Under the pieces are notes generated by a model that worked only from the letters and a program-made list of their open reading frames with translations, searched no databases and was not told where the DNA came from. Both the position numbers and the translations under genes were made by a program. From a virus, in the IMG/VR virus record IMGVR_UViG_3300042465_006666, positions 1 to 44,009 of that record: 44,009 nt of DNA, one strand, 5' to 3'. How positions within the stretch are numbered: the first letter of the stretch is position 1; each line of letters begins with the position of its first letter. This document shows positions 2-33,197 of this stretch, piece by piece.

Positions 2-526
2 CCCCTGGTTGCGGGGTTAGGGACGTATACGTTCAGTCCTACCGGGATTGTAGTTATGCCCAAGCCGCCTCGGGCGATTGATGCTTACTACATGGACTCC
101 AATGGTATTCGGCGGCCGCTGGTTCCGTTAAGCTGGAATGATTACATTCGCCTGAGCCAGGTTAACACAACTGGCCAGATCAACTCTTACTTTGTTAACA
201 AGAAGCAGGAAGAGCTGAGTGTATTTTTCTGGTTAATCCCCGATGCAGTAGCTGCAACAGGCACTGCACACTTGCTGCTGCAAACACAAGTTACTAATTT
301 TATCTCCGTAACGGAGACGATGAACTTCCCAATCGAGTGGCGAATTGCGCTGCGTTGGGGACTTGCGGATGAGCTGGCGACTGGCCAACCCCAGGCAATC
401 ATGGATCGTTGTCAGCAGCGAGCAATCAGCTACCGGACGATGCTGGAAGACTGGGATGTGGAAGATGCGCCGACTCGGTTTACTCCGGATTCGCGCAATC
501 AGTACTCTACAGGGAAGTTTCGTTAA
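2..526 (+). CDS. P22 gp4-like tail accessory factor, C-terminal part (partial)
   Basis: This is the C-terminal part of a head-to-tail adaptor that seals the portal after packaging. The frame is open from base 2, before the first ATG at 56, and begins PLVAGLGTYTF, which is a continuation and not a start. The N-terminal 61 codons are at 43827..44009. The motif SWNDYIRLSQ and the region FPIEWRIALRWGLADELATG are typical of the P22 tail accessory factor family (gp4). The stop is next to the start of the gp10-like gene, the usual gp4-gp10 order. Joining the two ends directly breaks the frame, so about 2 (mod 3) bases are missing or one base is extra. The family call comes from motif memory and gene order. 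Confidence 0.85.
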   Translation, partial: PLVAGLGTYTFSPTGIVVMPKPPRAIDAYYMDSNGIRRPLVPLSWNDYIRLSQVNTTGQINSYFVNKKQEELSVFFWLIPDAVAATGTAHLLLQTQVTNFISVTETMNFPIEWRIALRWGLADELATGQPQAIMDRCQQRAISYRTMLEDWDVEDAPTRFTPDSRNQYSTGKFR

Positions 527-1951
527 ATGGCACAAGCTGAAACAGTTGCGATTCCTAAGCGTTTGCCGCTGGTGCTTGAAGCGGCGAACCGGGATCACAC
601 ACCTTTTAAAGATGCACGTCTTATCAATGGTTACGTCGAAAAGAATGACAAGACTGAAGAGTACTGGATTTTTAAGCGCCCGGGATTGCTGCAAACAGGC
701 GCAACAAAAGTTGGTAACGGCTATGGTGTTTATAACTGGAATGGAGACATATACTCAATCTTTGGAGCGACGCTGTATAAAAACGGAACTAGCATTGGGA
801 CGGTAGACGCAACGGGTGGAGTGTATAGATTTTCTTCCAGCCTCGGGGCTACCCCGCGTTTGCAGCTAGGCAATGCAGCAGCTTCGTATAACTGGGATGA
901 TACTACACTTGCGCAAATATCTGGGGTTAACTTTCCAGGCAACACTTACACCACCGCCGGGGCAGTTGCAGTTAAAGGATTTGCGTACCTAGACGGTACG
1001 ACTTACGTGCTAGACACTACGTCTTATATCCACGGATGCGACGTCTTAAATGACCCTACCTTGTGGACAGATTTGCTAAACATCATCGGCGCACAGATTG
1101 AGCCAGACGCCGGAGTGTTCCTGGCTAAACAGCTTGTATACGTCCTGGCGCTTAAGGGTTGGTCAACCGAGGTTTTCTACGACGCCCAGAATACTAGCGC
1201 ATCTCCCCTTGGCCCGGTGCAAGGAGCTAAAATAAACTACGGTTGCGTCAGCGCAGATTCTGTTCAAGAAATCGACGGTACGTTGCTCTGGGTAGCTACA
1301 AACCGTTCGTCCGCTGCGCAGGTAATTCTAATCGACAACCTTAAGCCGACTATCGTATCTACAAAACCTATTGAGCGGATACTAGGGGAAGCTGATTTCA
1401 CCAACGTAGCATCCTTCGGCATTAAGTACGATGGACATAGATTTTATGGCATCACACTGAAAAACGATAACATCACGTTAGTCTATGACATGACTGATAA
1501 GATGTGGTCGCAGTGGACAGATGTGGATGGAAATTACTTTAAGATTGTTTCATCGACGTTTCTTCCGGGGACTGGCCGCGTACTCCAGCATGAGACGAAC
1601 GGGAAGTTGTATCTGTTTGATTCTGACTATACTTCCGACGACGGTCAAGTTATTACTGTGGATTTGTTTACACCTAACTTTGACGGTGGACTGCGCCGAA
1701 GAAAACAGATGACTATGATGGAGTTCATCGGGGATCAGACTACTGGAAGCACTCTGCAAGTACGGGTGAATGATTCTGACTACGAAGCCAGCAAGTGGTC
1801 TAGTTTTCGCCTTGTCGACATGGGAGTACGCAAGCCCATCCTGGCAAACTGCGGCACTTTTATGCGTCGGACTACACAGATCCGCCACCAGTCCAACACC
1901 CGGATGCGCCTGCAAGCAATAGAGTTGCAGTTGGATATCGGAACACTCTAA
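527..1951 (+). CDS. P22 gp10-like packaged-DNA stabilisation protein
   Basis: This 474-residue protein probably forms the hub of the tail tube below the gp4 ring and holds packaged DNA inside the head. The N-terminal pattern PLVLEAANRDHTPFKDARLINGY, followed by a beta-rich body with repeated YNW, FYGI and YDMTDKMWSQW segments, is typical of the phage stabilisation protein family. Length fits P22 gp10 (about 470). The ATG directly follows the upstream stop, and the 3' end overlaps the next start by one base (TAATG), so the gp4-like, gp10-like and next genes are translationally coupled. No catalytic residues are expected. Confidence rests on length, position and motif style. Confidence 0.88.
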   Translation: MAQAETVAIPKRLPLVLEAANRDHTPFKDARLINGYVEKNDKTEEYWIFKRPGLLQTGATKVGNGYGVYNWNGDIYSIFGATLYKNGTSIGTVDATGGVYRFSSSLGATPRLQLGNAAASYNWDDTTLAQISGVNFPGNTYTTAGAVAVKGFAYLDGTTYVLDTTSYIHGCDVLNDPTLWTDLLNIIGAQIEPDAGVFLAKQLVYVLALKGWSTEVFYDAQNTSASPLGPVQGAKINYGCVSADSVQEIDGTLLWVATNRSSAAQVILIDNLKPTIVSTKPIERILGEADFTNVASFGIKYDGHRFYGITLKNDNITLVYDMTDKMWSQWTDVDGNYFKIVSSTFLPGTGRVLQHETNGKLYLFDSDYTSDDGQVITVDLFTPNFDGGLRRRKQMTMMEFIGDQTTGSTLQVRVNDSDYEASKWSSFRLVDMGVRKPILANCGTFMRRTTQIRHQSNTRMRLQAIELQLDIGTL

Positions 1952-2481
1952 TGGCAACTAACGTATTTCAGCCGCCGCCAACCTGGGCTTTGCCTGTGAT
2001 ACTTGATGAAGTGTCAGGCAAGGCTGCGTTTAATCCTATCTGGCTTCGCTGGTTTCTTGACTTGTCGCAGAACCTGGGGCAAGGCGGTGCAGGATCAGTT
2101 TCGAGTGTAGCTGCTTTAACCCTCGGAACATCGGGGACTAACTTAAGTTCTACTGTAGCCAATCCAACGACTAACGCAGTTATCACATTAAACGTCCCGA
2201 CTGCTTCGGCGACTAATCGAGGTGCGTTGAGTGCAGCAGATTGGACTACGTTTAACGGCAAGGGTAACGGAACAGTTACTAGCGTCAGCGGCACCGGAAC
2301 AGTGTCTGGTTTGACTCTTACGGGAACTGTCACTGGCTCCGGTAATTTAACACTTGGTGGTACGCTAACAACAACCGGAGTTAGCGCCACAATCGTAACT
2401 GCTAAACTGACCGCACTCGGCGCAAATGGCAGCATGACTTTTACAAACGGTTTGCTTACCTCGCAGACCCCTGCAACCTAG
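1951..2481 (+). CDS. Putative tail-associated structural protein
   Basis: This is a 176-residue protein. Residues 1-40 contain a P/W-rich segment with FNPIWLRWFLDLSQNL, followed by a long Thr/Ser/Gly/Val-rich beta-repeat region. It contains ATNRGALSAADWTTFNGKG, a segment common in tail-fibre and tail-needle proteins of environmental phages. The composition (over 40 percent T, S, G, A, V) suggests an extended beta-strand fibre. It starts by TAATG overlap with the gp10-like gene and precedes the putative ejection proteins, where P22 has its tail needle. A needle or short fibre role is an inference from position; I do not recognise a specific family. Confidence 0.75.
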   Translation: MATNVFQPPPTWALPVILDEVSGKAAFNPIWLRWFLDLSQNLGQGGAGSVSSVAALTLGTSGTNLSSTVANPTTNAVITLNVPTASATNRGALSAADWTTFNGKGNGTVTSVSGTGTVSGLTLTGTVTGSGNLTLGGTLTTTGVSATIVTAKLTALGANGSMTFTNGLLTSQTPAT

Positions 2482-2489
2482 GACTGACT

Positions 2490-3389
2490 ATGGCATATGA
2501 TGATGGAGGTTTTGAAGCCTACGGAGAAAACGCAGCGCCTAGCGGGAATGCAATGGTTGACTTTGGGTTGTCCGCTGGCAATCAACTAGGACTCAGTGCG
2601 CCAACGCTTTCTGGCATGGGGATTAACCTAGGCACAGGCAGTCAAGCTGGTTTGCAAGCTCCGGGTTTTGCGGCAAATGTTGGAAAGACAGCTTTTGGAA
2701 CCTACGGAGAAGATCCGGGTATGATGCCTGATTACGACTTTAGCGGCAGGGCGTTGGAAGGCATGGCGAGCTTGGGCAAAGCTAGTTCTGGGTTACAGCA
2801 GACTGGTTACGAGGGGTTGCAAGCTAATGCAAACACTCGCGGATACAACATGAGCCCGACTACGCAGACAGTCGGCCTGGAAGGAACGCAACCAGCGCCA
2901 GGATTTTTTGATACCCCCGCGGGAAAAGCTGTGCAGACAATCGCGGGATTCATACCGATAGTTGGAAATATATTCAACAGTGCGGTAAATTTTAGTAAAA
3001 ACCAAGACCCAGTGCAGGCACTGTTAGGACTGATCCCCGGCGTTGCCGGTTTTGCTGCAAGTACTGCATACAACGCTTCGCAGTCTCGAGATCCTTTAGG
3101 TTTCCTGGGTGAGCGGGCAGTGGGGGCTGGAGCTAGTATGTTAGGCGGGGCACTTGGGGGACGGGCTGGAGCTATGGGAGCTAGTCAATTAGCCGGCGGC
3201 TTAATGGGCAATGCGGCGGCGGAGCGCGCATCCTATGGCCCGTTTGGAAATGCTACTCTTGGCAATATGCAGCAAGCATCTGCGCAGCAGTCTTTAATGG
3301 GGCAAATGCCAGATCCTAACTTTGCCGGCCCTGGTAATGAGAATGCTCAAGCAAGTTTACTTTTGCGTCGATTAGCAACTACTAGTTAA
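2490..3389 (+). CDS. Gly/Ala-rich putative ejection (internal virion) protein
   Basis: This 299-residue protein is low in charged residues and rich in Gly, Ala, Met and Ser. It has a hydrophobic stretch around residues 145-200 (GFIPIVGNIF, LLGLIPGVAGFAAS) and an AGASMLGGALGGRAGAMGASQLAGG tract near 210-235. Such amphipathic, small-residue-rich proteins in this position are typical of podovirus ejection proteins (P22 gp7/gp20/gp16 or T7 gp14-16 analogues), which leave the head with the DNA and line a channel through the envelope. There is no sequence match I can name. It lies 8 bases after the upstream stop, with a weak AGGA element ahead of the ATG. Confidence 0.75.
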   Translation: MAYDDGGFEAYGENAAPSGNAMVDFGLSAGNQLGLSAPTLSGMGINLGTGSQAGLQAPGFAANVGKTAFGTYGEDPGMMPDYDFSGRALEGMASLGKASSGLQQTGYEGLQANANTRGYNMSPTTQTVGLEGTQPAPGFFDTPAGKAVQTIAGFIPIVGNIFNSAVNFSKNQDPVQALLGLIPGVAGFAASTAYNASQSRDPLGFLGERAVGAGASMLGGALGGRAGAMGASQLAGGLMGNAAAERASYGPFGNATLGNMQQASAQQSLMGQMPDPNFAGPGNENAQASLLLRRLATTS

Positions 3390-3399
3390 AGGATATTTT

Positions 3400-4278
3400 A
3401 TGGCTGATAATTACTATATTCCAGGATACTCTGACGTTCGAACAACGTTGCCAGTAGTAAACGTAGATGCTACAAGCTACTCAAATAATCCGTATCCTCC
3501 GGAATTTGACGCTCCAGCGTACTCGCCTACGTCCCCTTCGTACAATCAAACTAGCTATCCCGGCGGTGAGATTGCGCCTCAGTTTGATGCTCCTGAGTAC
3601 TCGCCTACGGGCAGTATGCCGGCATCGACGCCGTACCAGTACATGGATTTACCCATAAACTCTTCTAGCAGCGTTGGCAATTGGCTACAAAATCTTTACA
3701 GTTCCATGATGGGGCCGGGGACTGCGTTAGGCGGAAAGTCCGGGGCTTTTACAGGCGGAGCCTCAGGCGGCATGGGAGCGGGTGGGCAAGGCTGGCTATC
3801 TCCACTTATGAGCATTGGCTCGGGTATTTATGGGATGAGCCAGGCGGAGAAGCAGCGGCAAGAAGCTCAGCGGGCTATTGCAGGATCTAGCCCCTGGACG
3901 TCTTCCGGTGGGCAAGCAGCCGCAGGTACTGAACTGACGCGGGTGATGCAAGGAGATTTTACAAATGATCCGGGATTCAAAGCTGCTCAGTTAGCCGCAT
4001 CGCGCACCTCGTCTCAGCAACCCGGCGGCTTCGCAGCGCAGGCGGCGGCACAGGCGGCGCTGAAGTACCAGAACGACCGGATACAAGCGCTTAGCCAGCC
4101 GGCGGGTGTAGGGTTTAGTCCAGGGGCAGGCTACCAAACAGCTATGGGAGGAATGACTTCAGCTAATGAGCTGGCGTCACGGAGCCTTGGCTCAATAGGG
4201 TACGGTGTAACTGGCACGCAACCTATGCCGCCTTGGTTGCAGCAATACTTAATCACCAACGGAATGGGGAATCGGTAA
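3400..4278 (+). CDS. Putative ejection protein with FDAP-YSPT repeats
   Basis: This is a 292-residue protein. The N-terminal 70 residues are Pro/Tyr/Ser-rich and contain a duplicated segment, FDAPAYSPTSPSY and FDAPEYSPTGSM, so this part is probably disordered. A Gly-rich hydrophobic section follows (about 100-150), then an Ala/Gln-rich helical part (AAQAALKYQNDRIQALSQ). Start is supported by AAGGA about 7 bases upstream. The stop overlaps the next ATG by one base (TAATG at 4276-4280). Position between the gp10-like gene and the giant protein points to an internal virion protein. I do not recognise a family. Confidence 0.75.
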   Translation: MADNYYIPGYSDVRTTLPVVNVDATSYSNNPYPPEFDAPAYSPTSPSYNQTSYPGGEIAPQFDAPEYSPTGSMPASTPYQYMDLPINSSSSVGNWLQNLYSSMMGPGTALGGKSGAFTGGASGGMGAGGQGWLSPLMSIGSGIYGMSQAEKQRQEAQRAIAGSSPWTSSGGQAAAGTELTRVMQGDFTNDPGFKAAQLAASRTSSQQPGGFAAQAAAQAALKYQNDRIQALSQPAGVGFSPGAGYQTAMGGMTSANELASRSLGSIGYGVTGTQPMPPWLQQYLITNGMGNR

Positions 4279-5321
4279 TGGCTGAACTATTCGGCGCCCC
4301 TCTAGGGATGATAGCCGCCGGCGAGCAAAGTCGGCAGAATGCACTAGTCGGGCTGGAAGCACAAAAGGTTATGAATACCTTGGCGTTGCAGCCTTCTAAA
4401 ATTGCGCTTGACGAAGCACAGACAAAGTACTACGGAGCACAAACAGCCGAGGCAGACGCAAAAGTTGAAGCGGCACGAGTAATGCAGCGGCTTGGCGAAG
4501 GGTTTACTGCAGATACGCAACGTCGGCAAGGTGCTATAGATAAAGCTGCTGCACAAGGTCAAATAGCAACGGCAGCTGACCTAAAAAGCGCAGGGCAAAA
4601 AGTTTCAACTGCGCAACCACTAAAAGATTTTGCTGCGTATGCTGCTGGTAAAGGTGCTTCTCCGATGGTACTTGAAAGGCTTTATGGAGAAATTGCTACG
4701 ATAGAAGAAAAAGAGGCACAGGGGGCTTGGAGAGACCAGCAAGTATTATCTGATCAAGATAAAACAGCACGCGAGCAGCGCACGGAGATAGGAGGCATTG
4801 CTGCAGCCGCGGCAGAAAGTCCTCAACAGTACGCAGCGATCATGATGAATCAGGATCTGCGAAAGCGCTTGCCGCCAGAGCTTACAGGTAGTTACGACGC
4901 AGATCGTAATACGCTACGCGCAATCGGGCAAGCCAGCATGGATGCAAATAAGCAAGCTGACAACAGGCGCCAGCAAGCGGAGCTTGATGCGCGGCAAGCT
5001 AACTTTAACGCGGGAGAAGCAAAACGGGATGCGCAAGTTGCAGCGGCGACTGCACAGGCCGACCTTGCGGCTGAACGTCTTGCTAACCTAATTAAGTTTG
5101 GAGATCAAAATTCAGAGGCGGGGCTTGCTGCCAAGAACGCAGCGCTAGAAGCAGCTCGCGCTAAAACAGCTGCCTTACGGGAAAAAGCCACTCCGCAGTT
5201 ACCACTTGACCCGGGCAGCCGAAAACTTGGCCAATCGTATATGTTGCCGGATGGCCGGACAGCTCGGTGGGAAGTTGATCCGACTACTAAGAAACCCGGT
5301 CTTAATGTATTAGGAGATTGA
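4278..5321 (+). CDS. Ala/Gln-rich helical putative ejection protein
   Basis: This 347-residue protein is almost entirely alpha-helical by composition: Ala, Gln, Glu, Arg and Lys dominate, with long stretches such as ADNRRQQAELDARQANFNAG and a likely coiled coil at about 210-290. The start at 4278 (MAELFGAPLG) is set by TAATG coupling to the upstream stop; an in-frame upstream start at 4233 would lie inside the previous gene. It resembles the helical internal core or ejection proteins of podoviruses by composition and place only. The stop is one base before the ATG of the giant protein, so the two are probably made and packaged together. Confidence 0.75.
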   Translation: MAELFGAPLGMIAAGEQSRQNALVGLEAQKVMNTLALQPSKIALDEAQTKYYGAQTAEADAKVEAARVMQRLGEGFTADTQRRQGAIDKAAAQGQIATAADLKSAGQKVSTAQPLKDFAAYAAGKGASPMVLERLYGEIATIEEKEAQGAWRDQQVLSDQDKTAREQRTEIGGIAAAAAESPQQYAAIMMNQDLRKRLPPELTGSYDADRNTLRAIGQASMDANKQADNRRQQAELDARQANFNAGEAKRDAQVAAATAQADLAAERLANLIKFGDQNSEAGLAAKNAALEAARAKTAALREKATPQLPLDPGSRKLGQSYMLPDGRTARWEVDPTTKKPGLNVLGD

Positions 5322-5322
5322 T

Positions 5323-8300
5323 ATGGCATTCATTACTGAAGCGGAAGCTTTTCGTTCTGTTACGCGTACACCGGCAGCACCGGCAGCAGCTCCGGCCGCA
5401 GCACCCACGGTTGAAGTTCCCGCGGCACCTCCAAAAGTTGGTAACTTTATTGACGAGCGTGAGGCTACGGGTATGTCCGCAGCTCCTTCTATGTTTGCCG
5501 GGGTGCTTGAGCAGGGTCGCGCATTAGCTGGGCAAATTGGTTCTGATGTGCGGGGCATAACACAGCCTTTCCGTAGCGTGCTGCGGGACTCACCTAAAGT
5601 ACCGCCGCCAACTTTTAACACTGACGCAGCTGCTAATCGGTATTATCGGGATAAGAGTGTAAGCCCCGGCTCTGTAATGTTTTCGCAGACAAATCAAGCA
5701 GACAAGCGCGCGCAGGTGATGAAGGATCTTGCTAACGCTCCGCCGGCACCTCCTACGTTCATGGCAAATCCCCGAAAATACGTAGAGGGAATGACGCTAG
5801 GAACTGCTGGACAACTATCCGATATGTTTAGCAGCATTCCTAAGAGTGTGCTAGGCAGCGCGGTTTATAACTACGCTCGCCTTTACGATGAGCTGTTTAC
5901 GAAGGTGCCTCGAGCAGACAGTGTCAAAAACGCGCAGGCACTCAAGGACAAATGGCCGCAGCAACTTAACGCGCCTTGGAGCGTAGTAGCCAAGTCAATG
6001 GGGCCGGAGGCTCAGTACTTTTACGAAAACAATCCAGTTGCTTTTGTAATGCACCATATTGGCAAGGGGATTGAAACTGCGGCGGGGGGTGCTGGAGCTG
6101 CAAGTGGTGTGCCAGTTGGGGATATTATGAATCTGGCCGATGCCACGATGGGCTGGCTGGGGGTTGCTGGGGTTAAGAAAGGCGTGACGAGTTCTGTTAA
6201 AGCTCGTACAGCGCAGTTGCGTGGAGCGCTTGAGCCCAAGGCACCGGCAGTGCCCGGCGGAGTAGAACCTACGCTGGAAGGGGCACTTGCTCCTGAACTA
6301 GCTCCGGCTCCAGCTCCTGCTGCGCCCGCTCTGGGCATGGGCGCGCGAGTTCGCGGGGCACTGGAAGGCGTGCGGCAAGATTTTCGCGAAGCATCTGCAA
6401 TGGGAACGGACGCAGTGGCGGCGGCAGCAGAAGCTGTAGCTGTGTCTAAGGCGCGGATTGCTGCGCTTACGCCAGAGACGGCAGTGGATCTTACGGAAGC
6501 ACTGCCGGCTGCCCCGACAAAAGCGGAGCTTAAAGCGCAAACTGCTGCAGTGGATTCGCTGGTAGTGGATAAAGCTAAGCTGCAAGAGATCTTTGGCCTT
6601 GCGGCTAGAAAAGGCCCGGCGGCTGAGGCAGCGTTAGTGCAGAATATTTTTGATCGGGTGTTAAAGCCTGTTACTAAGGTAGAACCCCCGCCTGTAGTAG
6701 AATCTCGAGTTCCTTACGATGCAACTACTTTTCCACCGGGGGCAGGACTAAAAACTACTTTACCCAAAACGCCTGTAATAATTGGCGAACCTGTTAAACC
6801 AGATTTAGTAACATCAGGACTGGATAAGCTTCGGCAAGGACTGCTTATCTCGACGCCAGAAGCAAAAGCAATTAGAGGGCTGCAAGTACGTGCAGGAGAA
6901 GGTGTGATTGTAGATCAGTCTGGTAAGCCACTGTTTCAGCGAGGGGCGGCTGATCCATCCTTGCTTAAGGTGCTGGGGCTTATGGGCCTAGGCGCGGTGG
7001 CGGCGAATCAGATTTATGACTGGTGGAATAGTTCAAGCGGATTATCGGAGGATAAAGCGCGCGATGTTGGCATGGGACTGGCTGCCGCTGGTGCTGCAGG
7101 AGTGATGAAACCTAAGGGAGGTATGTGGCATCCATTTGCTGTGCCGAGGTTAGCCGGGCCGTTGGCGGAGTCGTTAACCTTTTATCCTAACCTGGGCGTT
7201 GGAGCAGCCGCTGTACGCGCTCCCGGAGAGCCGCTACACTTTGGCGAAACGTGGGCTAATAATGCGGTGACGAAGTGGCTTAATAAAGAAGCTGGTACGG
7301 CAGCGGATAGAGCTAAAGATATCGTGCTACCCAATGGGCAGACGCTAGAGTCCGTAACAGACCAAGCGTTTGGAAGTGCGCCAGCGGGAGACTATGCGTC
7401 AGCAGCGGCTGCGCGCGGCGCAAAGTACGGCTTACGCTCAGTTCGACAAGGATCTCAGAGTGCTATTCCGGGACTTAACAAACTTATTCAAGAGGGTAAG
7501 GTTAGCTTAGACGAACCTATTTATCAGGTAGCTACTGAAAATTTTGACCGACAGTACGGGCACCAAGGCGATAATGTTGCTTACTCTGCATCCGTGCTAT
7601 CGGATTATCTTAGTCACGTTGGCGATTACATGAGGTCGCTGAATCTTACGCCGGAGAAGTTACAGCAGTACGACCTGCCTCGTGCTATGCAAGAGACGAC
7701 GGCCAATGATGCACGGATCGCAGCGCAAGCGTTAAAGGACTTTACCAAGCCAAATCCTATTCGTATTGCTGATACGCAAGCATTACCGGTGTATGAAGGG
7801 AAGAGCTACCCTAGCGAGATGGCCCCCGCGCGTACGTTCTCTTTTAACAGAGACGGTTCGATTAGAAAAATGGAGTCGATTGACTTGCCGGCGGGGGAAG
7901 TGCAGTATACTTGGCATGAGCTGAAGTTGCCGGATGCTCTGACGCCGGAGCAAGCAAGCAGGATTCTTCCTCTTGACAGCTGGGGGGCGAATACAGCTAT
8001 TGGAAGAGTTCCACCCGATATGCGTTATAAAGCGGTGGATGCTAAAGGTAAGGTGATAATAGATAATTTTAGCGAGCAGCCAGCGGTCGGGCGTACTCCG
8101 GAAGAAGCGCACCTTGCGGGGCAAATGGCGCAAGAGGGAAATGCATTAGGCCACTGCGTAGGTGGGTACTGTACAGATGTGCTGGACGGGAGTTCGCGGA
8201 TTATATCACTGCGCGATCAGCTTGGTCGGAGCTATGCTACGGTGGAGTTAAAGCAGGATCCACTTACAATGCGTGCACTACGCGGAGATATTGGAGAAGC

Positions 8301-11300
8301 TTCCCGGGTTAACGCGCAGAAAATGATTGCAGAAGGTCGCGAGCGTCCACGTAGCATTGCCCAAATCAAAGGCCCCGGCAACGGCGCGCCAGCGGACTAT
8401 GTTAAACCTTACGTGCAGGACTTTGTTAAGTCAGGCAAATGGTCAGATGTTAAAGATCTGGACAACGCAGGGCTACTACCTTATAAAACTGCGATGGGGG
8501 GTATTGATCCTTACACTTACAAGCTCGGCACAGTTGATTACCAAGCCATAACTTTAGAGCCTGGCTATTATACTAAAGCTGAGTTAGCTGACGCATACGC
8601 AAAAGCCGGGGGTGAAATTGATCCGAGATACACCGATCAGCGAGGCGCTGCTAAGCCCGAACAGCTTGCCTTACTAGCCGGCGGAGCAGCTGCGGCAGCC
8701 TATCTCGCCAACGATCCTAATCCGGATACACTAGCTAACCTGTCAATGGCTCTTGGCGCTGGAGTTATTGCAGCACGCGGTGGTAAGTTTGCCGACCTAC
8801 CCGAAGGGAAGTTGATTGAAACCTTCCGTGCTGGTGGCCGGGAAGGGGAGGCGGCAGCTGCGCAGATCTGGGAAGATACACATAGGCAGCTAGGCCGGAC
8901 AATCGGCAACATGAACCGGCAGCTGGATGAAGCGGGTATCCAGGATATCAGTCAGCGAGTTTACGAGAAGGTGTTTAAAGCGCTGAAGCAATCCCCCGAC
9001 GAGCCAGGTGGTTTTCGCGGAGACGCTAAGCTGTCTACATTCCTCCACGGAGTTGCGTCGAATGAGGTTAAAAACTCCTTCGCCGCCGCTAGCCGTCGAC
9101 CAGCTACAGACTCCATGACCGTAGATGCGGAAGGCACGACAGCTGTTCCTGAAAAGTACATGATGGAGCAGAATCCTGAGCGTTACCAAAGCGCGGAGGA
9201 TATAACGGCTAACAACCAGCTTGCTCAGCAAATGCAAAAGGCGTTGGACAAACTGCCTGAAGACTCTCGAGCGTTGTTTGAGTCTATCGAGATGGAAGGC
9301 CTATCGTACCAGGAAGCTGCAGATCGTTTTGGGATTCCTATTGGAACTGTCCGTTCGCGGGTCAGCCGGGCAAAGGATGCGCTTAGCCAAAGCCTTCGTC
9401 AGTACCGTACTCAAGGGGGAAAGATTGATGCAGATGCGGTAATTGCTCTGGGTGCGTTAGGCAGCGGGGTGGCTCTGGGGGCGTATCTGGACTCTGACAA
9501 TCCTATCCGCGGCGGGGTGCTAGGGGCTATTGGCGTAGCCGGGTTTGGGGCGATGGCGAAAGGTAAGCCAGGGAATGCTCTTGATTATACCTTAGGACTA
9601 ACATCAACTCGACTAGGCGGTGTGTCCCAACCATTACTCCGGCGTGCGAGAGATTACGAGCGTACAGTTATGGAACGGACGGATAGAGCACTGGACGCTG
9701 TAACGCCTTTTATTAAGGGGATTAAAAAACTACCAGCGGCAGCAGCTGACGCATTAAATCTAGCATTGCTGCGGAATGATCCAGGCGAAATTGCCGCCGC
9801 AATTAAAGGAAATCCTGCGCTGGTTGCCGGGTATCGGCAAGTGCAAAACCTTCTCGCAGCATTCCGTGCAGAGCAGATTAGCATGGGTCGCTTTGCTGCC
9901 GGGGTTAATGAGTATTTTCCGCGGGTAGTTAAAGATCTGGAAGGGCTTAAAGAAGCGCTAAACCAGCCAATGCGTACGCACCTGGAAACTTTGCTGGCGA
10001 AAGCTGAAGCAGATATGATTAAGACTCGTGGGCGCGGAATGACGGATGTAGAGCGCTCGCTTGTTGTTAACAGGGCACTGCAGACTGTTCCACCTAACGC
10101 AGCGCTGCCTGGATTTGCAAGAGCCCGAAGTGTAGATGTTACAGCAGATCTTGCACCGTTTTATTTAACACCAACAGAGTCATTGCTGCGGTATATCGTA
10201 GGCGCGGTAGAAGATGCGGAAGTAGCTAAGTTCTTCGGTAAAGATCTTGCGTCTAATAAACTAGCCAGCGGGCAACTTGCTACGAACGTAGATAAATCTA
10301 TTGGCAATCTTGTGCAGACAGAGCTAGCAGCTGGCAAAATATCTCCCGAACAGCAGCTGGAAATTAAAAGCATACTTGAGTCTCGCTTTAAAGCTGGTGA
10401 GCAGCAGATGGGCGGGTTTTTGCAGGACGTGCGAAACGCAACTAACCTAGGATTGCTAGGTAACTTTGCTTCCGCTGCCACGCAGATTGGTGACTCAATG
10501 ATGACTGCGTATCACCACAATTTAATGCCCACGCTTAGCGCGCTGCGGATGAAGCTGACAGGTTCTTCCCAAATCACAACAAAGGAATTTGGGCTGGTAA
10601 ATCACATTGCGGAAGAAATGGGGAGTACGCGACTCAGCGGTAAGGCTGTGCAAACTGTGTTTAAGTACACAGGGTTTTCTGCGATTGATCAGTTTGCTAA
10701 AGGGTTGAACTTAAACGCAGCGTTGATTAAAAACCAAAAACTAGCGCAGACGCCGAAAGGCCAAGCGGCACTTGCAGAGCGTTGGGGGCAGGCGTTTGGC
10801 CCGGAGTTTCCGCAGTTGCTGGCAGATCTTGCAGGGAAGCGAATGAGTGAGCCGGTTAAGAGTTTACTCTTCAGCGAGCTGTCTAATACCCAACCTATCA
10901 CGAAACTGGAAGTACCGCAAGCGTACCTTGACCATCCGAATGGGCGGATCTTATACCAGATGAAAACGTATATGCTAAAGCAGATTGATGTAGTTCGCCG
11001 CGATGCGTACCAGGAGATTGCGAAAGGTAACTATGTTAAGGGTGCGCGTAATTTAGTTGGGCTGGCCGCCGCACTGTCTCTTGCGAATATTCCAGGGGAT
11101 CTTGTTAAAGATATGTTAGCTGGGCGGCCGATTGATTTGGATAAGATAGACTACGTAGAGAACCTGTTGCAGAACTTTGGCATTAATCACTATACAATGG
11201 GGAAGATTAACAGAGAAACGCTGGCTAAGGGAGTTAAAGAATTTGCCGTAGGAGCTGTTACGCCGCCGAGTTTGAGTATACTTAGCGACCTGGACAAACC

Positions 11301-11517
11301 AGAGCGGCTTATCAAGTACATCCCTGGCGTAGGCCGGCCACTGTACGATAGAGAGTTCGGCGGCAACGAAGCACGGAAGTGGGCAGAGCTAGTCCAAGCT
11401 AAGCGTAAGGAACGCGACCGCCTGGAGGAAGCGTCTCCTGCATTAAAGGCCGAACGTCTTCGCAAGGCCGAGGCTATCAAGCGCAAACGCAACGAGGCTA
11501 TGCAAGCATTACCTTGA
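5323..11517 (+). CDS. Giant putative virion protein with PcfJ-like domain and embedded ECF sigma factor
   Basis: At 2064 residues this is the largest gene, about 14 percent of the window, at the end of the ejection-protein block. Seen in order: a Pro/Ala-rich N-terminus; hydrophobic hairpin 1 (about 547-600); a PcfJ-like domain with GHCVGGYCTDV at 943-953 followed by SRIISLRDQLGRSYATVELK; hairpin 2 (about 1115-1153); an ECF sigma factor at about 1175-1365, with sigma2 (DISQRVYEKVFKAL from 1208, then FRGDAKLSTFLHGVASNEVK) and sigma4 (LPEDSRALFESIEMEGLSYQEA, then GIPIGTVRSRVSRAKDAL, to about 1359); hairpin 3 (about 1373-1413); then about 650 helical residues. The sigma4 recognition helix GTVRSRVSRA is close to E. 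coli RpoE GTVRSRIFRA. I infer it is packaged and ejected with the DNA. No internal ribosome site is evident before the sigma part, so release would need proteolysis. The PcfJ-like call is moderate; the sigma call is strong. Confidence 0.93.
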   Translation: MAFITEAEAFRSVTRTPAAPAAAPAAAPTVEVPAAPPKVGNFIDEREATGMSAAPSMFAGVLEQGRALAGQIGSDVRGITQPFRSVLRDSPKVPPPTFNTDAAANRYYRDKSVSPGSVMFSQTNQADKRAQVMKDLANAPPAPPTFMANPRKYVEGMTLGTAGQLSDMFSSIPKSVLGSAVYNYARLYDELFTKVPRADSVKNAQALKDKWPQQLNAPWSVVAKSMGPEAQYFYENNPVAFVMHHIGKGIETAAGGAGAASGVPVGDIMNLADATMGWLGVAGVKKGVTSSVKARTAQLRGALEPKAPAVPGGVEPTLEGALAPELAPAPAPAAPALGMGARVRGALEGVRQDFREASAMGTDAVAAAAEAVAVSKARIAALTPETAVDLTEALPAAPTKAELKAQTAAVDSLVVDKAKLQEIFGLAARKGPAAEAALVQNIFDRVLKPVTKVEPPPVVESRVPYDATTFPPGAGLKTTLPKTPVIIGEPVKPDLVTSGLDKLRQGLLISTPEAKAIRGLQVRAGEGVIVDQSGKPLFQRGAADPSLLKVLGLMGLGAVAANQIYDWWNSSSGLSEDKARDVGMGLAAAGAAGVMKPKGGMWHPFAVPRLAGPLAESLTFYPNLGVGAAAVRAPGEPLHFGETWANNAVTKWLNKEAGTAADRAKDIVLPNGQTLESVTDQAFGSAPAGDYASAAAARGAKYGLRSVRQGSQSAIPGLNKLIQEGKVSLDEPIYQVATENFDRQYGHQGDNVAYSASVLSDYLSHVGDYMRSLNLTPEKLQQYDLPRAMQETTANDARIAAQALKDFTKPNPIRIADTQALPVYEGKSYPSEMAPARTFSFNRDGSIRKMESIDLPAGEVQYTWHELKLPDALTPEQASRILPLDSWGANTAIGRVPPDMRYKAVDAKGKVIIDNFSEQPAVGRTPEEAHLAGQMAQEGNALGHCVGGYCTDVLDGSSRIISLRDQLGRSYATVELKQDPLTMRALRGDIGEASRVNAQKMIAEGRERPRSIAQIKGPGNGAPADYVKPYVQDFVKSGKWSDVKDLDNAGLLPYKTAMGGIDPYTYKLGTVDYQAITLEPGYYTKAELADAYAKAGGEIDPRYTDQRGAAKPEQLALLAGGAAAAAYLANDPNPDTLANLSMALGAGVIAARGGKFADLPEGKLIETFRAGGREGEAAAAQIWEDTHRQLGRTIGNMNRQLDEAGIQDISQRVYEKVFKALKQSPDEPGGFRGDAKLSTFLHGVASNEVKNSFAAASRRPATDSMTVDAEGTTAVPEKYMMEQNPERYQSAEDITANNQLAQQMQKALDKLPEDSRALFESIEMEGLSYQEAADRFGIPIGTVRSRVSRAKDALSQSLRQYRTQGGKIDADAVIALGALGSGVALGAYLDSDNPIRGGVLGAIGVAGFGAMAKGKPGNALDYTLGLTSTRLGGVSQPLLRRARDYERTVMERTDRALDAVTPFIKGIKKLPAAAADALNLALLRNDPGEIAAAIKGNPALVAGYRQVQNLLAAFRAEQISMGRFAAGVNEYFPRVVKDLEGLKEALNQPMRTHLETLLAKAEADMIKTRGRGMTDVERSLVVNRALQTVPPNAALPGFARARSVDVTADLAPFYLTPTESLLRYIVGAVEDAEVAKFFGKDLASNKLASGQLATNVDKSIGNLVQTELAAGKISPEQQLEIKSILESRFKAGEQQMGGFLQDVRNATNLGLLGNFASAATQIGDSMMTAYHHNLMPTLSALRMKLTGSSQITTKEFGLVNHIAEEMGSTRLSGKAVQTVFKYTGFSAIDQFAKGLNLNAALIKNQKLAQTPKGQAALAERWGQAFGPEFPQLLADLAGKRMSEPVKSLLFSELSNTQPITKLEVPQAYLDHPNGRILYQMKTYMLKQIDVVRRDAYQEIAKGNYVKGARNLVGLAAALSLANIPGDLVKDMLAGRPIDLDKIDYVENLLQNFGINHYTMGKINRETLAKGVKEFAVGAVTPPSLSILSDLDKPERLIKYIPGVGRPLYDREFGGNEARKWAELVQAKRKERDRLEEASPALKAERLRKAEAIKRKRNEAMQALP

Positions 11518-11525
11518 AAATAAAT

Positions 11526-11554
11526 GGAACTAAAGTAACAGTCTCGGGTCTAAC
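11526..11554 (+). promoter_or_regulatory. ECF-type promoter, site G (rightward)
   Basis: The -35 element GGAACTA (11526-11532) and -10 element GTCTAAC (11548-11554) are separated by exactly 15 bp. This is the same architecture as six other intergenic sites in the window and as E. coli RpoE promoters. It lies in the 80-bp gap after the giant gene and would drive the transglycosylase-like, tail fibre and lysis genes. Confidence 0.8.
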
Positions 11555-20002: not shown

Positions 20003-22461
20003 ACACAATCTCCCCAGGAGACAGCGGAAGTCTTGACGCCTGTGGGGATGATCAGGGGCGGGTCGTAGGGAATCTCGATGCGGGAGTGCTTCTCCATGAG
20101 AGGGAGGATCGTAGCGGAGCGATGCGTGGGGAACTGTCCAGCAAGGGAGTCGTGGACTTGGAGGAGCACTTGGACTTCCGGAATGTTCTCGTAGAAGGAA
20201 GTCCAGATCCGATTGATCAGGATGCCAACAGTGGACTGAGGAACCCAGGCAAGGGCTTCGGGGAGAAGCGCTTCGAGCCTGTCGAATATGTACCAGCGGT
20301 AGCCCCAGCGGTTCTCAACAAAGCGATGGCGGTTGATCTGGTCAAAGGTGCGAGTATGCCACTCTCGGATGCCCGGATGGGCGGAGAACCAGTACTTCTG
20401 CGCAACGTCGATTTCGTGGATCGTGCGGCCAGTGTGACCTGCAACAGTCTTTGCACCTCCGCCGTAGTTGGTAGCGTGGCAGAACACCTTGGCGAATTCC
20501 CTAGCGTGCTTAAGCGGAGCGCGATGGTCGCGGTAGTTCGGGTGGGATTCTACCAGCTCGTCAAGGGGGGGCGGGGACTTCTTAGCTAGAATGTACGCGT
20601 TGAGCAGGTGCATATCGACGCCCTGGAGCATGGCGGCTATCCAGTCCGGTTCGGCAGCCTCGCGTACGACTACTTGAAGATCCGCCCTATCCAGATCCAT
20701 GTCGAAGAAAGTGAAGCCTGGATCTGGGCCGTACATACTGCGAATGTTCGGGAGAGTGAAGTCCATAGAGCCTCGAGCCGCGGCCTTGCCGGACGATTTA
20801 CTCTTTTCAGAAGGGATTGTTTGGAGATTTCCGCCAGATCCGAAGGGGTTCTTGGACGAAGAAAGTCGATAAGAATACGGCGCAGATTTTCCACCGGCAT
20901 CTCCTGCTATGTTGAAGGAACAACGCATCCGGCCGTCGTCGTCTAGAGGCATCATGACGAAGTCGCCGAGGAACTTGTTGAGGGTACGAATGTCTGCGAT
21001 AGCGTTGCAGAGAGGCTTGACGAGAGGCTCTTTGGCCGCGATCTTGCTGAGGGCTTCGTCATCGCAGGTTGGGTTCATCGTTGTCTTGCCGGCTAGGATG
21101 ACGCGCTTGTAGATGACGGGTTGCTTGAGGTCATCGTAGAAGAGCGTCTGCATCTGCTTGGGGGAGGCAGGGTTGATTGAGTGTCCTAGGACATTGTGGA
21201 GAAAGGCTTCGCGGTGGGAGAGCTCTTCCTGGATATCAAGGGCCATTTGGTTCTTGATCTCGTGACGGATGCGGACTCCACGGAGCATCGCGCGCAGGAC
21301 AGGGTAGAAGAGCTTCTGCTGGTGTATGTCAACCTCAGCAAGGTGCATGGACTCAGCGACTTGCTGGAGGACTTCACCGGACTCTCGCGTGTATACGCAG
21401 TCTTGGAGGTTGTAAGTCCAGCGTTGTTCCTCCGGAACGTCAGAGGCAATCTTCCCTTCGTCTTTCCAGTAGACGTACCAGTCCGCGTACATGGAGGCGA
21501 TGAAGGCTAGGCCCTTGGGCAGCGCGCAGAAGACGCTGTGCTGAGTTATCATTGTATCCTGGCCGCCGTTCGGGATAAAGTGCCAATGGCGGTAGACATA
21601 CTGCGCGTCGTAGAGGCCGTTTTGCCAGCGCACCTTGACGTTCTTATGCGTAAGCAAGCGATAGATTGCGAAGACAATCTGAGACTCCTCGTCGGCAGAC
21701 CAGTAGCCCTCTGGCTTGCCGCGCGCCATCAGGGGGATGCACAGAGCGTCTTGGCGCGACCAGCTGAGGCCGATGCAGTCTATATGTCCTCCGCGTGTCT
21801 CGATATCGAAGTCAATCCAGACCGTCTCGGCGAATGCGGTAGCGTCGGAGTGCAGGGCCTGGAGGCAAGTGAGTGCTTGCGGGAACGTCGGGCGGACTAG
21901 GAAGTTCCAGGTTGGCTTGTTATCGTAGACGCGGGAAGTCATGTGACGCTTGAGGCGGCGGAGGTCGGAGAGGACTACCGCACGCTGGTTCCACTCGCGA
22001 ATGACTGCGCCAGGGGTAAGGGTTGGTATGACCTTGATGCTGTCGGAGGTTGACAGGAGTGACCCGCGCCACTTGAGCACACCCCAGTGGCCGGTTAGTG
22101 CCCAGAGCGCTAGGTTGCCCATGGCCAAGATGATGTTCGGCTGCACCATCTGGATTTCCGTGAGGAGTTCTGCGTAGCCCTCGTGGATGTGGTAGGTGCA
22201 GTACTTGTCCTTGAGCAAGGTGTGATGGGCGGATATGTCTTTCTTTTTCAGGGCAATCCAGGTGGACAGCTGGCCCAGCGGGGGACGCTCCTTGCAGACG
22301 TAGGTAGCGTAACACTCTGAGCGCATCACGCCGACTTCGTGGAGCATACGATTAAGCTCCATGCCGGAGGCTCCGTCGAAGGGCTGACGGTCACGCTCGG
22401 CAGGGAACTCCCCGACGATCATCACGCGAGTAGGGATAGGGCCTTCGCCTTTTACTCGCAT
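19999..22461 (-). CDS. Family A DNA polymerase fused to a UDG-like N-terminal domain
   Basis: This 820-residue protein is the replicative polymerase. Residues 1-165 resemble uracil-DNA glycosylase family 4/5 (GEFPAERDRQPFDGASGMEL at 17-36), but the motif-2 His is Thr149 in IPTLTPGAVIR and no N-terminal CxxC is present, so glycosylase activity is doubtful. The 3'-5' exonuclease has D219-x-E221, N281/D285 and Y350/D354. Polymerase motif A is DMDLDRADLQ (D587, D589; the usual steric-gate Glu is Asp), motif B has R654, K658, His662 in place of Phe762 of Pol I, and Y666; motif C is QVHDS at 768-772. A one-base overlap (TGATG) with the methyltransferase gene fixes the start. UDG-like fusions are known to me from SPO1-like polymerases. 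Confidence 0.92.
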   Translation of the reverse strand: MRVKGEGPIPTRVMIVGEFPAERDRQPFDGASGMELNRMLHEVGVMRSECYATYVCKERPPLGQLSTWIALKKKDISAHHTLLKDKYCTYHIHEGYAELLTEIQMVQPNIILAMGNLALWALTGHWGVLKWRGSLLSTSDSIKVIPTLTPGAVIREWNQRAVVLSDLRRLKRHMTSRVYDNKPTWNFLVRPTFPQALTCLQALHSDATAFAETVWIDFDIETRGGHIDCIGLSWSRQDALCIPLMARGKPEGYWSADEESQIVFAIYRLLTHKNVKVRWQNGLYDAQYVYRHWHFIPNGGQDTMITQHSVFCALPKGLAFIASMYADWYVYWKDEGKIASDVPEEQRWTYNLQDCVYTRESGEVLQQVAESMHLAEVDIHQQKLFYPVLRAMLRGVRIRHEIKNQMALDIQEELSHREAFLHNVLGHSINPASPKQMQTLFYDDLKQPVIYKRVILAGKTTMNPTCDDEALSKIAAKEPLVKPLCNAIADIRTLNKFLGDFVMMPLDDDGRMRCSFNIAGDAGGKSAPYSYRLSSSKNPFGSGGNLQTIPSEKSKSSGKAAARGSMDFTLPNIRSMYGPDPGFTFFDMDLDRADLQVVVREAAEPDWIAAMLQGVDMHLLNAYILAKKSPPPLDELVESHPNYRDHRAPLKHAREFAKVFCHATNYGGGAKTVAGHTGRTIHEIDVAQKYWFSAHPGIREWHTRTFDQINRHRFVENRWGYRWYIFDRLEALLPEALAWVPQSTVGILINRIWTSFYENIPEVQVLLQVHDSLAGQFPTHRSATILPLMEKHSRIEIPYDPPLIIPTGVKTSAVSWGDCV

Positions 22462-23798
22462 CAGAGTCCAATCGACAAGTCAAGTTCTTGCTGAGCGCGA
22501 AGATCCGCGATCCGCTTGCAAGCGATGCCGTAGCTGGACTGATCCATCTCGATGCCAGTTGCTCGGGCTTTCATCGCATGGGCAGCGGGGAAGACAGGCC
22601 CGCTGCCACAGAATGGGTCAAGGACAGCTTGGCCAGGGAGGACGGATCGGCGAAGGAGGTCTTCGAAGAGCGCTACAGGTTTCTGCGCGGCGTGGCCGAG
22701 GTTGCTGTCGGGCGGGTAGTCAAGGACGTCTCCGAGCATCTTGAGGATAGGTCGCTTACCCTTGACGGCGTAGAGGAGAATCTCGTACTTACGCTGCGGG
22801 CCTTGCTCGGGCCAGGGTGCGCGCATACCGGACTTCTTGTACCAGATAAGCGGAGTACGGAAGACATTCCAGCCGGCCTCGACCATCAGGGATTTGAGCT
22901 GGGCGAACTTGTCAAAATCGCAAAAGCAGTAGAGATGCGCTTGAGGCTTTGCGATACGGTAGCCCTTGAATGCCAGGGCGGTGGCGCAACGCATGAAGGT
23001 TTCGTAGCTGTCCTCGTAGCCGTGAGCGCCGGCAGCTAAGCCGCCCGAGTCTCCGAACTCATCTGCGCTCATGCCGTAGGGAGGATCGGTGATGATGCAG
23101 TCGAAGCTGTCAGCAGGGCAGGCATCCATCCAGTTGATTGAGTCAGCGTGGACTGCCTGGTGCATATCGGCGGTGAAGGTCTTGCCGACCGACGCCCCGA
23201 GCTCCCTGTGCTTTATAGCGGTCTCTTCCTTGCGGAGGATCTTAAAAGCTTCATCGACGGTTTTCGCTGCTTTGATGGCGGGATTGTCCAGGTGACCTGC
23301 AACGATAAGTTCCCGGCGAGTGTTTTCTTGATGGATACCTTCGGAGCTCCCGCGAACCTCAAGCGAGATGTCAGCTGTAGTAGGCGGCGGTGCTCCCCGC
23401 TGGACTGCCTGGGCGGTACGAAGTGTGTTGAGGCGAGCATGGGCGGCTGCGCGCTCTTGCCATGTAAGGTTTTCACGATGGATGTTCTCGGAGAGTTCAG
23501 CTTCCTCTGCCGCCAGTGGGTCTAGGTCGCTGAGGAGAGTGTAAGGGATGCTGTTCGCACGGACGCGCTCGCCGTCGTGCATGATCTCCCCGCCTAGGGC
23601 GTATATGTCCTTGACTGCTCGGAGGCGACGCTCGCCGGCGACTAGGTAGTAATCGTCGCCGACTATTCGCAAGATGATAGGGTGGAGAAGCCCCTGGGTC
23701 TGCAGCACCTCGGAGAACTCGCGTAGCTTGCCTTCCTCGAATACTTTGCGTTGGCGATCTGCTGCGATCTTGATTGCGTCTACGTGGATGAGTTTCAT
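22461..23798 (-). CDS. ParB-like domain fused to DNA methyltransferase (N4/N6)
   Basis: This is a 445-residue protein. Residues 1-100 are a ParB/sulfiredoxin-like domain with LVAGERRLRAV (the GERRxRA box). The C-terminal 230 residues are a beta-class amino-methyltransferase: CIITDPPYGMSADEFG (motif IV, DPPY) precedes VLDPFCGSGPVFPA (motif I, SAM site) and ATGIEMD. It methylates adenine N6 or cytosine N4 in DNA, probably to protect phage DNA from host restriction; no cognate nuclease is nearby. The start at 23798 (MKLIHVDAIK) has AGGAC just upstream; a longer frame to 23834 begins with a poly-Phe stretch and is unlikely. It is coupled to the polymerase gene. Confidence 0.9.
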   Translation of the reverse strand: MKLIHVDAIKIAADRQRKVFEEGKLREFSEVLQTQGLLHPIILRIVGDDYYLVAGERRLRAVKDIYALGGEIMHDGERVRANSIPYTLLSDLDPLAAEEAELSENIHRENLTWQERAAAHARLNTLRTAQAVQRGAPPPTTADISLEVRGSSEGIHQENTRRELIVAGHLDNPAIKAAKTVDEAFKILRKEETAIKHRELGASVGKTFTADMHQAVHADSINWMDACPADSFDCIITDPPYGMSADEFGDSGGLAAGAHGYEDSYETFMRCATALAFKGYRIAKPQAHLYCFCDFDKFAQLKSLMVEAGWNVFRTPLIWYKKSGMRAPWPEQGPQRKYEILLYAVKGKRPILKMLGDVLDYPPDSNLGHAAQKPVALFEDLLRRSVLPGQAVLDPFCGSGPVFPAAHAMKARATGIEMDQSSYGIACKRIADLRAQQELDLSIGL

Positions 23799-23863
23799 GA
23801 AAGTCCTAAGAAAGAAGAAAAAGGGGACGAGCACCGAAGCACTCGCCGCCCTAGCCTGGGGGA

Positions 23864-28301: not shown

Positions 28302-28331
28302 GATTAGACATGAACTGTTTGCAAAAGTTCC
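28302..28331 (-). promoter_or_regulatory. ECF-type promoter, site A (leftward)
   Basis: The -35 GGAACTT (28331-28325) and -10 GTCTAATC (28309-28302) are spaced 15 bp apart. The -35 is preceded by TAACTGT, which is also found at sites B and nearly at C. It lies in the gap between the 71-aa gene and the 180-aa gene. Confidence 0.85.
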
Positions 28332-29737: not shown

Positions 29738-29766
29738 GTTAGACACGGACTTTCGGGATTAGTTCC
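29738..29766 (-). promoter_or_regulatory. ECF-type promoter, site D (leftward)
   Basis: The -35 GGAACTA (29766-29760) and -10 GTCTAAC (29744-29738) are 15 bp apart. It is in the gap between the 58-aa gene and the 76-aa gene. The -35 differs from consensus at its last base. Confidence 0.75.
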
Positions 29767-30555: not shown

Positions 30556-30663
30556 TCACTTGGCTTTGGTAAGGGATTTCTTGGTTTTCTTGTACCCTTG
30601 CTTGTGGAATCGCCCAGGGCCGGACTTCGTTGCAGAAGGATTGCGATTGGTTCCAGTTTTCAT
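30556..30663 (-). CDS. Basic microprotein (35 aa)
   Basis: This 35-codon gene, MKTGTNRNPSATKSGPGRFH then KQGYKKTKKSLTKAK, is strongly basic and Gly/Ser-rich. It has AAGGAG eight bases upstream of its ATG and is the first gene after promoter B, which supports it in spite of its size. It might bind nucleic acid or a host target; that is a guess from charge. Confidence 0.55.
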   Translation of the reverse strand: MKTGTNRNPSATKSGPGRFHKQGYKKTKKSLTKAK

Positions 30664-30714: not shown

Positions 30715-30743
30715 ATTAGACAGGAACTCTCCGTCGAAGTTCC
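30715..30743 (-). promoter_or_regulatory. ECF-type promoter, site B (leftward)
   Basis: The -35 GGAACTT (30743-30737) and -10 GTCTAAT (30721-30715) are 15 bp apart. The flank ATAACTGT before the -35 is the same as at site A. It lies directly after the stop of the 117-aa gene. Confidence 0.87.
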
Positions 30744-30747
30744 ACAG

Positions 30748-31101
30748 TTATTGCGACAGAATTATCCGCCCCGCTTGACCAGCGAAAACCTCCCCGGCAA
30801 AGCTGGCCATGATATCTCTATCACACATGGCTAGCTCGGCCTCCGTCCAGCCTTGCTCTTTACAGTACGCAGTGCTGACTTGATTGAACGTCTGACTGAG
30901 CACTCGCAGAGCGTCCATCGCCTCTCCGTCTTGCCGAGCCTGCGCCTTCCTCGCCAAGGTCGCTGTGGCCTCCGAGCACATTCCTGCTCCGTACACCAGC
31001 GCGACCATTCGCCTCCCATGTGTCTTCGCTGGGCCGCGAAGCGCTTTGGGCAAATCCTCCAGCCCTTCATGCTCGCTATCAATTCCGTTAAGCTTACTCA
31101 T
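30748..31101 (-). CDS. Hypothetical protein (117 aa)
   Basis: This 117-residue protein is helical, with KALRGPAKTHGRRMVALVYGAGMCSEATATLARKAQARQDGEAMDALRVLSQ. The ATG at 31101 has GGAG eight bases upstream and lies just inside the end of the HTH gene. Ribosome-site quality and coupling favour it over the TTG at 31104. Unknown function. Confidence 0.65.
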   Translation of the reverse strand: MSKLNGIDSEHEGLEDLPKALRGPAKTHGRRMVALVYGAGMCSEATATLARKAQARQDGEAMDALRVLSQTFNQVSTAYCKEQGWTEAELAMCDRDIMASFAGEVFAGQAGRIILSQ

Positions 31102-31483
31102 CAAGTGGACTCCTCAGCAATTCATACCGCGCTTGCGCCTCGGGAGACATAAGGGACTGCTTCGGCGGCGAAGCGCGCTCCCCTGCTCCTCCGAGCATCC
31201 CTTGCAACCGTGCCAAGCTTGCCGCAACCTCCTTCTCCAGCCCCGCTCCTGGAGAATTCGCCGCTGCCGCAGCTGCCGCTTCCATCGTCAACCCTCCCGG
31301 TTCCACGCGGCCCATTTTCTCATAAGCCGCTTGCTTATTAAGCACTCGCCAGATAGTCGACTCACTCACGCCTAGCGCCACCGCAATCTCCATTCCTGTC
31401 CACTTGGGCTCCCCCCAGTCATTCACCTCCGCTCTCATCCGCCGGACTTCCCCTGCAGTAAACTGCGTCATAACTCTTTTCAT
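31094..31483 (-). CDS. HTH DNA-binding protein, candidate early regulator (129 aa)
   Basis: This is a 129-residue protein. Residues 10-55 contain WTGMEIAVALGVSESTIWRVL, a clear helix-turn-helix of the MarR/CENPB-like type, followed by a charged, Ala-rich tail (EKEVAASLARLQGMLGGAGE). It could regulate the early promoters or act as a second terminase-like HTH; the gene at 33257 is the better small terminase. The start at 31483 (MKRVMTQF) has AAAGGAG upstream. It is the first gene after promoter C. Confidence 0.7.
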   Translation of the reverse strand: MKRVMTQFTAGEVRRMRAEVNDWGEPKWTGMEIAVALGVSESTIWRVLNKQAAYEKMGRVEPGGLTMEAAAAAAANSPGAGLEKEVAASLARLQGMLGGAGERASPPKQSLMSPEAQARYELLRSPLDE

Positions 31484-31532: not shown

Positions 31533-31561
31533 ATTAGACCGTAGGCTGGCGATAAAGTTCC
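31533..31561 (-). promoter_or_regulatory. ECF-type promoter, site C (leftward)
   Basis: The -35 GGAACTT (31561-31555) and -10 GTCTAAT (31539-31533) are 15 bp apart, with TTACTGT before the -35 as at sites A and B (TAACTGT). It would drive the HTH regulator gene. Confidence 0.87.
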
Positions 31562-32772: not shown

Positions 32773-32801
32773 ATCAGACAGCTGGTTTCACAATTGGTTC
32801 C
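32773..32801 (-). promoter_or_regulatory. ECF-type promoter, site E (leftward)
   Basis: The -35 GGAACCA (32801-32795) and -10 GTCTGAT (32779-32773) are 15 bp apart. The -10 matches the E. coli RpoE form TCTGA. An A-rich stretch upstream of the -35 (to about 32836) could act as an UP element. It opens the leftward block. Confidence 0.75.
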
Positions 32802-33168: not shown

Positions 33169-33197
33169 GGAACTTCGTGGAGAGTTAGCGGTCTAAC
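33169..33197 (+). promoter_or_regulatory. ECF-type promoter, site F (rightward)
   Basis: The -35 GGAACTT (33169-33175) and -10 GTCTAAC (33191-33197) are 15 bp apart. A run of T and A at 33133-33158 precedes it. It would drive the packaging and head genes from the small terminase on. Confidence 0.87.

Follow-up and report, generated by a model that had tools for sequence, protein, structure and literature searches.

Phages may inject an RNA polymerase, as N4 does, or enzymes that modify the polymerase, such as Alt of T4, or they make sigma factors once inside the cell. The locus described here raises the question of whether a sigma factor may itself be carried in by the virion. The window, i.e. 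the whole stretch of DNA that was analysed (44,009 nucleotides of an uncultured virus of bacteria, IMG/VR virus record IMGVR_UViG_3300042465_006666), has a giant gene with an open reading frame of 2064 amino acids (5323..11517, + strand), which is the last of a putative ejection block and bears a sigma module. What this module is, which promoters it might read and how it might reach the host RNA polymerase are considered in turn.

The sigma domain of the giant protein

An earlier note had claimed that a complete ECF sigma factor lies within the 2064-residue protein, and this is borne out: the peptides that it quoted are present, and the TIGR02937 model, the PDB comparisons and an AlphaFold model all identify the domain. 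Its placement at about residues 1175-1365 (8836-9420) is right, although the domain begins slightly earlier, near residue 1161 (base 8803). The domain comprises residues ~1161-1366 (window 8803-9420), is closest to RpoE/AlgU and has the arrangement of an ECF (group IV) factor, with sigma2 followed by sigma4 over a short linker and no sigma3. In region 2 (residues ~1161-1260, 8803..9102, +), F1231 and N1247 correspond to F64 and N80 of RpoE, and region 4 (residues 1302-1354, 9226..9384, +) contains the recognition helix PIGTVRSRVSRAK. The likeness of this helix to that of RpoE had also been seen correctly, with GTVRSR[VL]SRAK corresponding to GTVRSRIFRAR in RpoE.

The profile search that the note proposed is positive for region 4, where Pfam Sigma70_r4_2 scores 55.3 bits (cut-off 25.7, E=5e-15, residues 1302-1354), but the Pfam sigma2 model PF04542 gives no score in the window copy. 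The same model is above its cut-off in seven relatives (L015, L020, L023, L026, L027, L029 and L067), and its silence in the window is a matter of weak scoring of this copy and not of a missing sigma2. TIGR02937, which covers the full ECF length, scores 67.5 bits (cut-off 42.9) over residues 1179-1357 and model positions 3-164 of 165. The best NCBIfam model is that of RpoE itself, TIGR02939 (E=1.2e-24), with 87.4 bits against an equivalog cut-off of 236 bits, so the domain is RpoE-like and not an RpoE equivalog. PHROG 1740, a profile of 567 positions annotated as sigma factor, matches residues 1208-1384. As a single sequence the domain matches AlgU (E=4e-18) and RpoE (E=6e-17) in the PDB, and with a profile of 14 family sequences the E-values for AlgU/RpoE fall to 2e-40 to 2e-39, SigW and SigH following at a clear distance.

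Structure prediction, also proposed earlier, gives the same answer, in that the AlphaFold model of the region has E. coli sigmaE as its first PDB match, and Foldseek pairs it with 1or7 and 6jbq. The mean pLDDT is 67.6, with about 80 in sigma2 and 85 in sigma4. Modelled sigma4 superposes on 2h27, the complex of sigmaE4 with -35 DNA, with TMt 0.82-0.84 and an rmsd of 1.6-1.7 A. Whole-length TM-scores are low (0.3-0.5) because sigma2 and sigma4 are differently placed relative to each other. Chance as the source of the sigma match is excluded. The embedded domain has the sigma2/sigma4 arrangement, the recognition helix and the promoter motif in common with host RpoE/AlgU, but differs in being built into a giant protein and in scoring far below the RpoE equivalog cut-off.

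The sigma is the part of the giant protein under the strongest purifying selection. Comparison of close relatives gives a dN/dS of 0.01-0.05 for sigma2 and of about 0.02 for sigma4 when the allele is the same; the N-terminal part has 0.13-0.22, the part with a PcfJ-like domain 0.19-0.29 and the C-terminal part 0.08-0.11. In RpoE the -10 element is read by F64 and N80 and the -35 element by R171, S172 and R176. Among the copies tabulated, F64, N80, R171 and R176 are kept in nearly all of those that occur together with the promoter motif, and S172 is kept in most of them (T in L020/L026). The contact residues are mostly lost in the divergent copy of L029, and the L029 contig has no promoter sites. 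These residues bear on the suggestion that the domain is no longer a sigma and merely binds either the incoming DNA or the polymerase of the host, perhaps to pull DNA in or to block host transcription. Such a role would suit its position in a polypeptide of great size and partly hydrophobic character, and the glutamate of region 2.2 (E52 in RpoE) is replaced by R in most sigma copies, but the -10 and -35 contacts are retained together with a cognate promoter set, and we regard this reading as very improbable.

Promoters and their occurrence together with the sigma

Exactly seven places in the window fit GGAAC-N17-GTCT[A/G]A, all intergenic and each 44-60 nt ahead of a start codon, with a sequence resembling a ribosome-binding site at most of the seven junctions. 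The E. coli RpoE promoter is GGAACTT, 16 nt and TCTGA; the motif of the seven sites, with GGAACTT at the strongest, is this same promoter. The sites are -35/-10 promoters of the GGAAC/GTC type that is cognate to ECF factors, and the embedded sigma would presumably read them.

Two of the seven sites face right and head late operons. One of them (11526..11553, +, with GTCTAA) lies just after the giant gene, 44 nt before the ATG at 11598 of a gene that by eye is lysozyme/transglycosylase-like. The other (33169..33196, +) precedes the 33257 gene, which encodes 161 amino acids with an HTH and is small-terminase-like by place, and the rightward packaging and head genes (terminase, portal, capsid). 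The remaining five face left, towards small genes and then the genes for exonuclease, Sak4, methylase, DNA polymerase and primase. They are found at 32774..32801 (-, with GTCTGA) before the ATG at 32728, at 31534..31561 (-) before the ATG at 31483 of an HTH protein, at 30716..30743 (-) before the ATG at 30663 (35 amino acids), at 29739..29766 (-) before the ATG at 29693 (76 amino acids) and at 28304..28331 (-) before the ATG at 28256, which heads the leftward exonuclease/Sak4/polymerase/primase genes. The HTH protein (31094-31483, -) has a weak match to phage transcription regulators.

The same seven sites are found in G001 and G005, which together with the window make three near-complete close genomes (in G005 the contig end cuts the giant gene, which leaves its sigma outside the comparison). 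Across the three genomes no orthologous site is missing, and all 77 motif positions are invariant whereas 24 of the 119 spacer positions vary, a conservation that is partly circular since the sites were found by exact motif match. Promoters of sigma-70 type are no commoner than in shuffled sequence, and none with 10 of 12 matches occurs in the early region.

Relatives were gathered by scans with the C-terminal part of the giant protein, down to about 25% identity. A sigma within the giant gene is found in 16 contigs including the window (L003-L006, L015, L020-L023, L025-L027, L029, L067 and L094 being the others), with identity down to ~32%. In 579 kb from the family and its phage relatives the motif occurs at 41 sites when the spacing is 17, and at 0-4 for any other spacing from 8 to 27. 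Exact sites are present in 11 of the 16 sigma-bearing contigs and in all seven of those above 25 kb; every contig that bears a sigma but no site measures less than 20 kb. By comparison, none of the 24 sigma-less contigs (531 kb) has an exact site, nor has any of the 9 among them above 25 kb, the sigma-less contigs being mostly distant or partial. The co-occurrence of sigma and promoter gives a Fisher p of 2e-6 for all contigs and 9e-5 for those above 25 kb, values that ignore relatedness and, because the contigs are related, are not for independent events.

One exception is the Alcaligenes phage OK172329 (L018, 40% portal identity), which has no sigma but one exact intergenic site (48814-48841) ahead of a rightward gene. 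Promoter-like matches at 32377 and 31419 of the same genome lie inside genes and were set aside as probable chance.

Such a site in a phage without the sigma is what would be seen if the host's own RpoE, freed by damage at entry, were the reader of the seven sites, with the embedded domain acting as a minor helper or as a competitor for the anti-sigma factor, and the motif does equal the host-type sigmaE promoter (GGAACTT-N16-TCTGA). The distribution described above speaks against it, however, because the motif follows the embedded sigma and is missing from all 24 sigma-less relatives. Host RpoE is also normally bound by an anti-sigma factor, and the strong purifying selection on the domain and the kept promoter contacts likewise count against this explanation. 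It is considered unlikely. The fold, the contact residues, the selection, the promoter set and the co-occurrence together support a working sigma that would take over the host RNA polymerase.

Place in the ejection block and delivery to the cell

The giant gene has the place of an ejection gene of P22 type. It is preceded by a tail adaptor (2..526, +; its homologue in MW202796 is so annotated), a head closure Hc3/tail stabilization protein that is P22 gp10-like (527..1951, +) and four further genes that extend up to the giant gene (1951..5321, +), three of which (2490, 3400 and 4233) encode small Gly/Ala/Gln-rich proteins. In P22 the corresponding place is occupied by the ejection genes gp7, gp20 and gp16, whose proteins have no sigma. 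What these genes share with the giant gene is the position after a tail adaptor, a gp10-like closure protein and small genes; sequence similarity between the P22 proteins and the giant protein is undetected, and the sigma is found only in the latter.

The conserved C-terminal 650 residues have no match in the PDB by sequence profile or fold, known ejection proteins of P22 or T7 type included. No relative of the giant protein body was found in 50,697 GenBank phage records with methods including tblastn, so that a homologue in a cultured phage is lacking, and the whole protein has few matches in these records, all to the sigma part only. Homology of the C-terminal part to an ejection protein was sought by sequence profile, fold and tblastn with no match, and an ejection role is suggested by gene order only. 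The place of the giant gene in a P22-like tail/ejection block, together with the bootstrap argument given below, suggests that the giant protein is present in the virion and injected.

Directly C-terminal of the sigma is a Gly/Ala-rich hydrophobic segment (residues 1371-1389, 9433..9489, +). Similar segments are seen by eye before the sigma (~1112-1155) and before the PcfJ module (~547-600), and of the three only residues 1371-1389 pass the hydropathy threshold. Release of a free sigma via an internal ATG at residue 1136, just upstream of the sigma, was considered and set aside, in that L003 and L006 do not share this codon.

The bootstrap argument is as follows. As both the leftward and the rightward operons appear to open with promoters of the sigma type, and sigma-70-type promoters are not above shuffles, nothing else is seen that could start the genome, and the first dose of sigma would have to come from the virion or from host RpoE. 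The other main rival, beside host RpoE as sole reader, is a purely late role, where the factor acts only after late synthesis as a conventional late-gene sigma, its carriage in the virion being incidental or the sigma being cleaved off first. The gene does lie within the late operon, and late genes stand behind two of the seven promoters, so that a late action of the sigma, alone or in addition, is conceivable. Phages of phiEco32 type employ an ECF sigma that is free-standing and synthesized in the course of infection (PMC7881722). Five of the seven sites, however, head replication-side leftward genes where sigma-70 promoters are not above chance, and a free sigma would need no fusion, kept across the family, to an ejection-block protein. 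A purely late role is accordingly judged quite unlikely.

The explanation that we hold to be probable is that a P22-like ejection-block protein delivers an RpoE-type sigma, which captures host RNA polymerase for the seven promoters of the phage. The 2064-residue product would be the last ejection-block protein, with the ECF sigma as a cargo module, and would be packaged in the virion and enter the cell together with the DNA. The sigma domain would then bind host core RNA polymerase and direct it to the seven GGAAC-N17-GTCT[A/G]A promoters, and so turn on the early/replication operons that run left and the late operons that run right. Later, new copies of the giant protein would sustain the same promoters before being packaged into progeny. 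It may be speculated that the hydrophobic segment beside the sigma anchors the complex at the membrane and that transcription could help to pull the DNA in; transcription-aided DNA entry has been proposed for T7 and N4. The sigma fold, the selection, the promoters and the sigma-promoter link across the family are the computed parts of this explanation; that the protein is packaged and injected, that the sigma binds core enzyme, and that and when the promoters are used are the parts that we infer.

As to the host, the only link in bacterial genomes is a contig of 4.4 kb from a metagenome bin assigned to unclassified Pseudomonadota, which is too little for naming a host. Models of anti-phage defence gave zero matches. 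A ParB-like domain fused to a DNA methyltransferase is encoded at 22461-23834 (-).

Cargo modules, known systems and meaning

The giant protein varies considerably in its modules between relatives. In the window a PcfJ-like domain (residues 934-989, 8122..8289, +) lies inside a module of residues ~600-1106 (7120-8640), ahead of the sigma. L004 (9555-14141) and L005 (8293-12813) lack this entire module and retain the sigma, L019, L024, L069 and L070 contain the PcfJ-like module alone, with no sigma, and in L015 (2461 amino acids) the sigma precedes two PcfJ-like modules (their resemblance being an alignment to the window module and not a Pfam match). Many distant relatives of 900-1100 amino acids are free of cargo, with the N- and C-terminal parts joined. 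The sigma is therefore a movable module, and the cargo slot that it occupies has Gly/Ala-rich segments at its borders. Exchange may also occur within the domain: L004 and L005 have a different sigma4 allele, with dN of ~0.48 against the window, while sigma2 is nearly identical, so that the two halves seem to be exchanged separately, and the kept, identical recognition helix in a differing allele is a sign of such exchange. Other relatives (L083, at 177-9575, L092, L093, L095, L097 and L098) are sigma-less and 1750-3130 amino acids long, with extra cargo that has no confident Pfam match and possibly represents other injected activities.

Mix-and-match modules in one large phage protein are shared with the polyvalent proteins (Iyer et al. 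2017, PMC5512222), large injected proteins of several domains that give transcription or replication an early start. The giant protein has several unrelated effector modules of this kind, PcfJ-like and sigma, in a different order in L015; no zincin peptidase domain was found in it with Pfam. Neither 'sigma' nor 'PcfJ' occurs in the text of the polyvalent-protein survey (PMC5512222).

In coliphage N4 the early genes are read by an injected virion RNA polymerase (PMC4496689). As is proposed for the giant protein, that polymerase is an injected late-operon product of giant size that begins early transcription before any protein has been made, but N4 brings the polymerase whereas the sigma of the giant protein would borrow that of the host. 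No T7-like RNA polymerase domain was found in the giant protein in Pfam or among the NCBIfam matches listed. Phage-encoded ECF sigmas are described for phiEco32/Kuravirus and Privateer (PMC7881722), and that of phiEco32 binds E. coli RNA polymerase. Those of phiEco32 and Privateer are free-standing proteins, in contrast to the sigma embedded in the giant protein, and the sigma is not named among the virion proteins in the passages on the Privateer virion. No published virion-borne sigma factor was found among the open-access papers searched. Start-up of transcription by an injected protein is known, and so are phage ECF sigmas that stand free; the novelty would be the virion-borne sigma as the means.

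If true, a virion-borne sigma would be a third way of taking over transcription at time zero; its regulon is legible in the genome sequence, and it makes exact predictions in the form of seven promoters and a cognate domain. It could explain how a phage starts in hosts that hold their own RpoE inactive, and it would make a natural sigma/promoter pair available for study. We lean towards the view that this is a podovirus-like lineage in which a virion-delivered specificity factor rules the whole genome, so that infection would proceed without the housekeeping sigma of the host. The virus probably steers host transcription from the moment of entry.
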